This document shows positions 9,897-12,276 of a stretch of DNA of 42,545 bases, piece by piece; positions within the stretch are counted from its first letter, which is position 1, and each line of letters opens with the position of its first letter. Both the position numbers and the translations under genes were made by a program. The notes beneath the pieces are model-generated. The model saw nothing but the letters and a program-made list of their open reading frames with translations. It made no database searches and was not told where the DNA came from. The stretch is from Candidatus Woesearchaeota archaeon (lineage in GTDB: Archaea > Nanobdellota > Nanobdellia > Woesearchaeales > UBA10216): assembly GCA_016180105.1 (NCBI GenBank), contig JACPBZ010000005.1, forward strand, positions 1 through 42,545. The letters run 5' to 3'.

Positions 9897-10142
9897 ATGG
9901 CGAGGACTATAATGATTGCTGACAGGGTTTATGAGGAACTGAAGAGGGCTAAAGGCAGTGATAAGAGCTTCAGTGAGGTTATAGCTGAGGCGCTTGAGGC
10001 GTCAAAGCCTAAAAAAACCATAGCTGGAGTTTTGAAGTATGCTGGCATCCTTAAGGGTGATACAGAGTACGACGAACTGATGAAGTGGTCAAGAAAGAGA
10101 TGGAAAGAATGGCAGGACAGATCATGGAAAAAATCTGTTTAG
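9897..10142 (+). CDS. VapB-type antitoxin
   Basis: I choose the ATG at 9897 rather than the track start, because a TATA box (TTTATATAG, 9865-9873) lies about 28 nt upstream; this gives 81 residues. MARTIMIADRVYEELKRAKGSDKSFSEVIAEAL is a ribbon-helix-helix-like N-terminus of the archaeal VapB/DUF217 type, followed by a tail (LKYAGILKGDTEYDEL) that would wrap the toxin. It overlaps the downstream PIN toxin gene by 19 bp, the usual toxin-antitoxin layout. An AT-rich near-palindrome (atattcatatgtatatctat) between TATA and start may be the autoregulatory operator. Confidence 0.85.
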   Translation: MARTIMIADRVYEELKRAKGSDKSFSEVIAEALEASKPKKTIAGVLKYAGILKGDTEYDELMKWSRKRWKEWQDRSWKKSV

Positions 10143-10498
10143 ATATCTCCGTATGCATTGATTTGATAAAACGAGGCAATGACGAGGCATTATCTTCTTT
10201 TTCAGCTGCTGAAGCTTTTTTGAGTTCGATGACTCTTTTTGAGTTAAGGCTTAGGACGCGCAACTTGGAAGAGGCCGAATTATTCATTAGTGCATTCGAA
10301 ATATTGGCGTTTGACAAGAAAGCAGCCGAGGAGGCGAGCAACATAGAAAAAGACTTGAAAGAAAGGGGCGCACTGATAGGACGCCAGGACATCTTCATAG
10401 CCGCAACTGCTATGGTAAACAACTGCGCCCTTGCCACATTAAAAGTCAAGGACTTCTCAAGGATTAAGGGGCTCAAGCTAGTTAAACTTCAAGAATAA
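10124..10498 (+). CDS. VapC-type PIN-domain toxin
   Basis: Starting at the ATG at 10124 gives 124 residues (MEKICLDISVCIDLIKRGN), matching the usual N-terminus of VapC with its first catalytic Asp in LDxS. SSMTLFELRLRTRN supplies the conserved Glu, GRQDIFIAATAM the third acidic residue, and ALATLKVKDFSRIKGLKL is the late VKDFxRIxGLK motif. PIN toxins are Mg-dependent RNases that often cut tRNA or rRNA. Its 3' end overlaps the convergent ABCE1 gene by 10 bp. Confidence 0.87.
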   Translation: MEKICLDISVCIDLIKRGNDEALSSFSAAEAFLSSMTLFELRLRTRNLEEAELFISAFEILAFDKKAAEEASNIEKDLKERGALIGRQDIFIAATAMVNNCALATLKVKDFSRIKGLKLVKLQE

Positions 10499-12276
10499 TA
10501 GTATTTGCCTTCCGCTTTCTGTTCCCTGTCGAGCCTGGAGTCTGGCGTGTTTATCCTGGGCCTGTTGGAGTCCTTGTCCCTTCTCAGGGTGATGTTGAGG
10601 CTTTTCAGGAAGTGGTTCATTCCAGTCTCCATCTGGAAGGGGCCGTGCGCTTCCCCATTGACTGCGGGCTCGCCTGAAAACACCATTAGCGTGTCTGAGA
10701 CGTAGTCTATGAGGAGCAGGTCGTGGTCAACCACCACTGCAGTTTTGCCCTGCAGGCTCATCCTTTCCCTGATTGCCTTTGATGCGGCGATGCGCTGCTC
10801 AACGTCGAGGTATGCTGATGGCTCGTCCAGGAGGTATAAGTCTGCATCCTCGGCCAGGCACTTTGCTATCATGACGCGCTGAAGCTCGCCTCCGGAGAGT
10901 TCCTTGAATTTCTTGAGCAGGAGGGGCTCTATTTCAAGCCTTGCCATCAGCTGGGTGTCATTTTGCGCCTTGTCCAGGAAGTTTGTCACCTGGTCTTCTG
11001 GGTTTTGGATGGCTGCGTTTATGTACTGCGGCTTGTATGAAATCGTGACGTTTGCATTCACGTTTCCGGAATCTGGCTTTATCTCGCCCGTAAGCAGCTT
11101 CACGAAGGTTGTCTTGCCAAGCCCGTTTTCGCCCAGTACGCCTGTGACGTGCTTCTTGGGCAGCTCCCCTGCTGGTGCGAGGAGAGTGAATTTTCCAAGT
11201 TTTGTTCTTATGCCATCCCATTTTACCAGGCTCTCCCTCCCGCCGAGTTTTTCTGGTGGCTTTGACTCGAATTTTATTTCGTGCTGCCTGAACCTCATGT
11301 TCTCATCGCGCAAGAATCCCTCGAGGTATGCGTTTATGGCGTTTCTTGTGGGCTTGGGCTTGCTAACTATGCCGTATGCTCCTGATTCGCCGTACATTAT
11401 GTGCACGGTATCGGCCAGGTAATCGAGTATTATGAGGTCGTGCTCTGCCGCCACAACCGAATTTTCCGGCTTGACCAGCGCCCTGATGAATTTTGCCGTG
11501 CTTATTCTTTGCTTTATGTCAAGGAATGATGTTGGCTCGTCGAATATGTAGACGTCTGGGCTCGCGTTGTCTTTTAGCGCGGCTGCGGCGATTGCTATTC
11601 TCTGGAGCTCTCCGCCTGAGACTTTGCTTATGTCTGTGTCAAGCACGTTGGTGATTCCAAGCTCGGCAGTGATTGCGGACGTTTTTTTCTCGTCCTTGCA
11701 CACTGCCTGGAGGAGTTTTTTGGCAGTTCCCTTGAACGTGGCTGGAATTGAGTCGACGGCTTGTGGCTTGACTGAGACTTTCAGTTTGCCATCTCGGATT
11801 CTTTCAAAGAATGCCTGGGCTTCTGACCCCCTGAACATCTGGATAAGGGCGTTAATGCTTTCGGCAGCGCTCTTTTTTTCAGTTGCTTTCCCGAAGTTGG
11901 GCTGCAGCATCTGCGCTATGACTTTTATTGCTGAGCTTTTTCCTATCCCGTTGATGCCCAGTATGCCGTTGACTTGGCCAAATAATGGCGCGGGCAGGCT
12001 GAAGAGCTCAAAGCCGTCTGTGCCGAATCGGTGTATGGGCTTGTCCGTGAGTTTCTCCGGCAGCTTGACCATGTGGATTGCGTTAAACGGGCATTTTTTT
12101 ACGGTGATTGATTCTGCATCAGTGCAGACTTCCTCGTTGACCTGCGCCTTGCCATCCGGGCCTATGACGAAGACTTCCTTGCCCATCCTGTTTCCAGGGC
12201 TCACCCTAAGGCAGAGATAACCTCCGCATCCCTGCGGGTTGCACTTGTCCTTCTCGATTACGGCTATGCGTCTCAT
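10489..12276 (-). CDS. ABCE1/Rli1 ribosome-recycling ATPase with a reduced Fe-S domain
   Basis: A 595-residue twin-ATPase that splits terminated ribosomes and bridges to re-initiation. NBD1 has GINGIGKSS, SGGELQRIAIAAA and FDEPTSFLD; NBD2 has GENGLGKTTFVK, SGGELQRVMIA and LDEPSAYLD. The N-terminal domain normally holds eight Cys for two [4Fe-4S] clusters. Here C12, C17, C22 and C62 remain (ligands I, II, III and VIII, by ferredoxin rules cluster 1). Ligand IV is Ser26 in LRVSPGN and ligands VI and VII are lost in VCTDAESITVKKCP, leaving only C51 of the second set. The reading frame is intact and all ATPase motifs are normal, so the gene looks functional with one cluster. See findings. Confidence 0.95.
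   Translation of the reverse strand: MRRIAVIEKDKCNPQGCGGYLCLRVSPGNRMGKEVFVIGPDGKAQVNEEVCTDAESITVKKCPFNAIHMVKLPEKLTDKPIHRFGTDGFELFSLPAPLFGQVNGILGINGIGKSSAIKVIAQMLQPNFGKATEKKSAAESINALIQMFRGSEAQAFFERIRDGKLKVSVKPQAVDSIPATFKGTAKKLLQAVCKDEKKTSAITAELGITNVLDTDISKVSGGELQRIAIAAAALKDNASPDVYIFDEPTSFLDIKQRISTAKFIRALVKPENSVVAAEHDLIILDYLADTVHIMYGESGAYGIVSKPKPTRNAINAYLEGFLRDENMRFRQHEIKFESKPPEKLGGRESLVKWDGIRTKLGKFTLLAPAGELPKKHVTGVLGENGLGKTTFVKLLTGEIKPDSGNVNANVTISYKPQYINAAIQNPEDQVTNFLDKAQNDTQLMARLEIEPLLLKKFKELSGGELQRVMIAKCLAEDADLYLLDEPSAYLDVEQRIAASKAIRERMSLQGKTAVVVDHDLLLIDYVSDTLMVFSGEPAVNGEAHGPFQMETGMNHFLKSLNITLRRDKDSNRPRINTPDSRLDREQKAEGKYYYS

Follow-up and report, generated by a model that had tools for sequence, protein, structure and literature searches.

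A natural ABCE1 with a predicted single iron-sulfur cluster in Woesearchaeota, and a mirror-image class in the same order

The ABCE1 locus and its iron-sulfur domain

The DNA analyzed here, called the window, is a stretch of 42,545 nucleotides from a Candidatus Woesearchaeota archaeon whose genome is 0.89 Mb in size and 89% complete. An intact open reading frame on the minus strand (10,489–12,276; 595 amino acids plus stop) encodes ABCE1/RLI and is the sole ABCE1 gene of the genome. The product passed the equivalog-level, full-length test of NCBIfam NF009945 (749.7 bits; cut-off 469), and its structure model matched P. abyssi 3bk7 best in a Foldseek search (E 5.8e-69, 48% identity by structure match). 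A second or canonical ABCE1 was not found elsewhere in the source genome, in which a genome-wide search gave a single strong match, and a hidden canonical copy was thereby excluded. Both nucleotide-binding domains (NBDs) have the Walker A and B motifs, LSGGELQR-type signatures and H-switch expected of ABCE1/RLI, with G107-S114, S220-R226, D246-E247, H279, G385-T389, S461-Q466, D484-E485 and H518 conserved. The Walker A motif of NBD1, GINGIGKS (residues 107–114; 11,935–11,958, minus strand), is intact, and its G107, N109, G110, G112, K113 and S114 are invariant. Convergent with this gene, at 9,897–10,498 on the plus strand, lie genes for a VapB-like antitoxin (PF02697) and a PIN-domain, VapC-like protein; the end of the PIN gene overlaps the 3' end of the ABCE1 gene by 10 bases.

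ABCE1 has been described with eight conserved cysteines and two essential clusters (PMC6088178, PMC8153317, PMC6656783), the clusters being diamagnetic [4Fe-4S]2+ and the domain that holds them a mechanical part (PMC6656783, PMC8153317). These cysteines are numbered here C1 to C8, corresponding to S. solfataricus C11, 16, 20, 24, 51, 54, 57 and 61, and form two ferredoxin-type ligand sets: site A (C1, C2, C3 and C8) and site B (C4, C5, C6 and C7). Domains that have lost the site-B set are termed A-only; those that have lost C1, C2, C3 and C8 and kept C4 to C7 are termed B-only.

The N-terminal FeS domain of the window protein (residues 1–73; 12,058–12,276, minus strand, as are all window positions of this protein that follow) scores above the cut-off of Pfam PF04068 (Fer4_RLI) and is of the A-only type. 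Its predicted [4Fe-4S] ligands are Cys12 (C1; 12,241–12,243), which is invariant in the A-only class, Cys17 (C2; 12,226–12,228), Cys22 (C3; 12,211–12,213) and Cys62 (C8, in a CPF context; 12,091–12,093), the last being lost along with C1 to C3 in the B-only class. One complete four-cysteine set of a ferredoxin cluster is thus present. At site B, Ser26 (12,199–12,201) replaces C4 and is encoded by AGC in 12/12 A-only members of the family that were compared, while DAESIT (residues 53–58; 12,103–12,120) replaces the C6/C7 stretch, and one additional residue lies between C5 and C8. Only Cys51 (C5; 12,124–12,126) remains there, orphaned by the loss of its three partners; it is invariant across the window's A-only family, and other A-only types have I, V, A or T at this position. 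With one of four cluster-B ligands, and with C1, C2, C3, C8 and the orphan C5 as its only canonical cysteines, the protein does not qualify as a two-cluster ABCE1. In a Pfam search, none of the dicluster Fer4 families matched by the Sulfolobus domain matched that of the window, in which Fer4_15 (single-cluster ferredoxin), Fer4_6 and, weakly, a CHHC zinc finger were matched below cut-off.

An AlphaFold2 (AF2) model was obtained from a 20-row alignment (pLDDT 87.4, pTM 0.85, TM 0.86 to 3bk7; pLDDT 76–92 in blocks over residues 1–80); AF2 on the single sequence gave a pLDDT of 36. The model is cofactor-free and was not used for Cys-Cys distances. Together with the PF04068 match it identifies an RLI-type N-terminal domain with a ferredoxin-like fold, and it places a continuous helix at residues 53–61, in the stretch expected to form the site-B cysteine loop. 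The first-pass annotation had proposed an ABCE1 with both ATPase domains intact, with C12, C17, C22 and C62 retained as ligands and with Ser26 and DAESIT in place of C4 and C6/C7, and had called for modeling of the domain. At the level of sequence all of this is borne out, with the ferredoxin-like fold kept in the model; its inventory of cysteines holds for the four ligands of one cluster and needs one small correction, in that C51 is a fifth cysteine, kept and orphaned.

The source genome encodes the core proteins SufB and SufD, which, for this genome only, excludes a missing Fe-S assembly pathway as the cause. A Pelota-like protein is also present. The release factor aRF1 was not found in the source assembly (none in G000, G004 and G006); its presence in five of eight congeners makes assembly incompleteness the likelier reason, and loss of aRF1 was rejected as a cause. 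Elsewhere, approximately 1.5 kb of in-frame sequence interrupts the eRF1_2 domain, with the look of an intein in aRF1, within open frames of 845–885 amino acids (G014:C4:11169-13073, G016:C1:333840-335642, G371:C1:354034-355950 and G398:C50:3004-4911).

Conservation and possible route of the loss

Within the window's family, the A-only pattern is shared by 8/8 genomes of g1, the window's own genus, and by at least four others, namely g3, g5, g6 and g7 (family and genus codes, f and g, are anonymous labels). Comparison of the window gene with same-genus genes gave dN/dS values of 0.015–0.036 for the FeS domain and 0.069–0.099 for the rest of the protein, so that this domain is the best-protected part of ABCE1 and is not decaying. 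At the replaced positions A54, S56 and T58, only synonymous codon differences were found in same-genus comparisons. In a tree built on the ATPase domains alone, the window's A-only group is a single clade (12 rows), as would be expected if the loss happened once within this family.

Sister genera of the window's family carry either eight cysteines with an insertion or seven cysteines (INTERMEDIATES). L012 has all eight and one additional residue between C5 and C6 (CTDACSVC), and L014, L015 and L021 have seven, with C5 lost (A/S/V..DAC.VC). The same seven-cysteine step is seen in families f58 and f60 (L065, L106 and L109; ATDACQVC), and in f58 the seven-cysteine L065 stands beside a full A-only protein, L064 (KKSPLNR..ANDTLQVVVNVCPF). 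These forms suggest a path from insertion through a weakened site B to ligand loss. In the window's family, the one-residue insertion between C5 and C6 would probably have weakened site B first, to be followed by loss either of C5 alone, as in the seven-cysteine sisters, or of C4, C6 and C7. A further oddity was noted in L162 (G280, family f28), in which C6 is replaced by His and one residue is added (CVDAHSIC); its site B is possibly His-ligated or weakened.

Two claims made from the single sequence are sustained by these comparisons. The loss had been called concentrated on one cluster rather than random, and plausibly selected, which the lower dN/dS of the FeS domain and the conservation of the pattern support. 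It had also been stated that close relatives retaining all eight cysteines would refute the proposal; congeners share the loss, and the sister genera hold eight-cysteine and seven-cysteine intermediates.

A mirror-image class across Woesearchaeales

The order was surveyed with profiles for the A-only domain (A1) and for its opposite (A2). Of 353 Woesearchaeales genomes searched, mostly metagenome-assembled and one per species, 311 had a scorable domain. The counts rest partly on profile-score bands, with sequences read for odd cases. A-only ABCE1 was found in approximately 43 of the 311 (families f1, f2, f21, f25, f41, f53, f54, f58, f59, f83 and f88), and B-only ABCE1 in approximately 52 (families f5, f6, f10, f50 and others; for example, L045 and L131), most of the latter marked by a new and conserved motif at the N terminus, DNxKLKDMxxKxHIQSLCPVNR...CIGCGICxNAAP. 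The domain could be read in approximately 165 distinct sequences, and the states seen were eight cysteines, A-only, B-only and, rarely, seven cysteines; loss of both ligand sets was not found among them. Other orders of the class contain a further A-only type, KYDPxNR...TEMHKISAKKCPF (L224 and L227-L233).

Across the order, cysteines were lost as {C4-C7} or as {C1,C2,C3,C8}, never as blocks C1-4 or C5-8, which excludes loss of the linear motifs as units. When the recurrent loss patterns were grouped into eight sequence types, only one of the 35 ways to divide eight cysteines into two sets of four, {1,2,3,8} + {4,5,6,7}, fitted all types. With random losses and types treated as independent of one another, the joint chance of this fit is approximately 1e-11; some types may have a common ancestor, so their independence is not established. 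C12, C17, C22 and C62 had been assigned to a single ferredoxin-type ligand set, and that set does co-vary as a unit across the order; the co-loss pattern is independent evolutionary support for the assignment.

In the ATPase-domain tree (164 proteins; a FastTree run was similar), A-only rows form nine separate groups, and the B-only state needs 19 changes. Judged by their sequences, the B-only domains are too alike for all 19 changes to be fresh inventions. Genus g46 has two B-only proteins among eight-cysteine ones: the NBDs of the B-only L130 and the eight-cysteine L182 are 85% identical and their FeS domains 47%, and L130 shares 70–76% identity in the FeS domain with families to which its NBDs are only 54–62% identical. 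The same mismatch was found in L139 (genus g99) and L146 (family f15). The simplest reading of these identities is that B-only domains spread by recombination within the gene, near the FeS/NBD boundary. A milder mismatch marks the A-only type of f41, f21, f88, f2 and f53; the f41 protein L022 is 50% (FeS) and 70% (NBD) identical to the eight-cysteine L184 and 82% and 66% identical, respectively, to the A-only L100. B-only proteins include L045, L131, L130, L135, L139, L146 and others, some of them among eight-cysteine relatives within single genera. The mirror-image class, which could not be seen from the window alone, is the larger finding.

Interpretation and comparison with known systems

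It is concluded, with a probability of roughly 80%, that the window protein is a functional ABCE1 with just one [4Fe-4S] cluster, bound at site A of the ferredoxin-like N-terminal domain; metal content and activity are inferred. The proposal of a single-cluster ABCE1 is supported as far as sequence can take it, by the ligand set, its conservation and its clade-wide sharing, by the mirror-image class and by several ribosome-contact residues that are kept, and Fe/S content has not been shown. In the proposed mechanism, the cluster would occupy site A (C12, C17, C22 and C62), and the site-B loop would be refolded into a cluster-free helix. The clusters may serve mainly as structural staples that keep the domain rigid, and a rigid FeS domain would be able to swing and push the subunits apart. 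In anaerobic cells, a single staple plus hydrophobic packing might be enough, in which case either cluster, though not both, would be dispensable, and the window protein would still split ribosomes with one [4Fe-4S] as its staple. Considered as a natural experiment, the survey makes it seem that one cluster can suffice, whichever of the two it is. The broader proposition, held with moderate confidence, is that in Woesearchaeales ABCE1 the clusters are individually dispensable and interchangeable, with two opposite versions, one of which moves by intragenic recombination, and that they are redundant staples and not obligatory cofactors.

The alternative that survives best, and that is still unlikely, is pure reductive drift, in which neutral change removed cluster B in a symbiont-like lineage of small population size, with ABCE1 itself on its way out. 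It draws on the small genomes and on the apparent absence of ABCE1, by profile search, from 18 Nanoarchaeia genomes of other families and orders of the class (G371, G486, G359, G398, G375, G379, G391 and others), most of which are at least 90% complete and two of which are single contigs. The best profile matches in these genomes, where there were any, were small ABC ATPases (1e-12 to 1e-21), compared with 7.6e-253 for the ABCE1 of a control genome (G364). In view of such near-complete genomes without ABCE1, recycling may have eroded in parts of the group; a protein with an eRF1/Pelota domain is still encoded by most of the genomes checked. Drift is opposed, however, by the FeS domain being under tighter purifying selection than the NBDs, by conservation of the replaced residues themselves, by stability of the pattern across several genera and by the apparent exchange of B-only domains between lineages. 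Neutral loss followed by re-fixation remains possible and overlaps with the single-cluster reading.

It is distinctly unlikely that loss of cluster B altered the mechanism itself, tuning recycling through iron or redox sensing or through a different energy profile of the swing. Different lineages did lose opposite clusters, and contacts of the K15/N17/E19 type are gone, but there are no functional data, and the core contacts are kept. In S. solfataricus, the FeS domain contacts the 30S subunit through R2, P25, R28, K59, K15, N17, E19 and S29, among which R2 contacts rRNA h5 and hinge 1, and P25 and R28 contact uS12 (PMC7196836). By alignment, the window protein retains R3 (12,268–12,270), P27 and R30, both within P27-G28-N29-R30 (12,187–12,198) beside the lost C4, and K60, equivalent to R2, P25, R28 and K59, respectively. 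Gly, Gly, Leu and Met stand in place of K15, N17, E19 and S29, which tells against the single-cluster reading, though the eight-cysteine relative L020 lacks the same four contacts, so their absence is not specific to cluster loss. The retained contacts, as inferred from alignment, suggest that recycling would be much the same; the changed recycling that had been envisaged for this protein has not been shown.

A third possibility is that the four remaining cysteines hold Zn(II), or nothing, Fe-S chemistry having been abandoned as the first step toward a cluster-free ABCE1. There are no metal data, and four cysteines could hold zinc, for which they suffice, or a [3Fe-4S] cluster, which counts against the single-cluster reading; the weak CHHC zinc finger match and the apparent lack of any ABCE1 in related Nanoarchaeia can be cited in favor of zinc or an empty site. 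Nevertheless, this possibility is very unlikely, given that the cysteines kept, and the CP context around them, correspond to a ferredoxin cluster, that Fe-S families are still matched (Fer4_RLI and, below cut-off, Fer4_15 and Fer4_6), that Suf core proteins are encoded and that no zero-cluster sequence was seen in the survey. An artifact of sequencing, assembly or gene modeling, which metagenome-assembled data in many contigs might invite, is ruled out for practical purposes: the pattern is present in other genera and in eight congeneric genomes that come from different studies, synonymous differences are many, and the open reading frames are intact.

No report of a single-cluster ABCE1 was found in the open-access full-text literature, and ABCE1 together with DPANN gave only unrelated work on release factors there; because only open-licence literature was searched, prior reports elsewhere cannot be excluded. 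It is not yet understood why a mechanical ATPase such as ABCE1 should depend on oxygen-sensitive clusters, and two opposite natural single-cluster versions make the question directly testable without recourse to crippled mutants. The contribution of each cluster is measurable from intact, natural A-only and B-only proteins, and if the reading of the clusters as redundant staples is true, ribosome recycling does not require both as obligatory cofactors.

Canonical two-cluster ABCE1/Rli1 (P. abyssi 3bk7, S. solfataricus 6tmf and yeast 3j16) shares with the window protein its architecture, NBD motifs, FeS fold, cluster-A ligands and the uS12 contacts P27 and R30, whereas the window protein lacks C4, C6 and C7, has one additional residue in the site-B loop and is predicted to have one cluster, not two. 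B-only ABCE1 is the same protein from the same order and also has one intact ligand set, but it is the opposite set, accompanied by the motif KLKDMxxKxHIQSLCPVNR and a domain that looks horizontally swapped. In monocluster bacterial ferredoxins (Pfam Fer4_13/Fer4_15), one cluster of the dicluster fold is kept, with ligands from both halves; a weak PF13459 match spans residues 7–68 of the window protein. These ferredoxins are electron carriers, unlike the FeS domain of ABCE1, which is described as a mechanical part.

A close parallel is archaeal Rpo3 (RNA polymerase subunit D), which has a ferredoxin-like domain with two, one or no clusters, depending on lineage; its single-cluster mutants are viable but impaired, and cluster 2 is the one usually lost (PMC5300874). 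Rpo3 resembles ABCE1 in that a ferredoxin-like domain of a core information-processing protein varies in cluster number, but its domain is accessory and missing from some orders, while the ABCE1 clusters have been regarded as universal and essential.

An experimental parallel comes from yeast Rli1, in which C25S and C61S, affecting ligands of different clusters, are each viable anaerobically and the double mutant is dead (PMC4523923). The authors' reading was that clusters stay bound despite one missing ligand (eLife, PMC4523923), which counts against true single-cluster function as the explanation of their result. The yeast substitutions differ from the natural losses in being laboratory mutants of single ligands and not of a whole set, and in being lethal in air. 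The likeness is that, without oxygen, one ligand of either cluster is dispensable and loss in both is lethal. Woesearchaeota are inferred to be anaerobes (PMC8421398), and the co-loss pattern can be linked to the anaerobic rescue of the single-cysteine yeast mutants: by analogy, the natural losses follow the same logic as anaerobic Rli1, in which either cluster may be affected, but not both.
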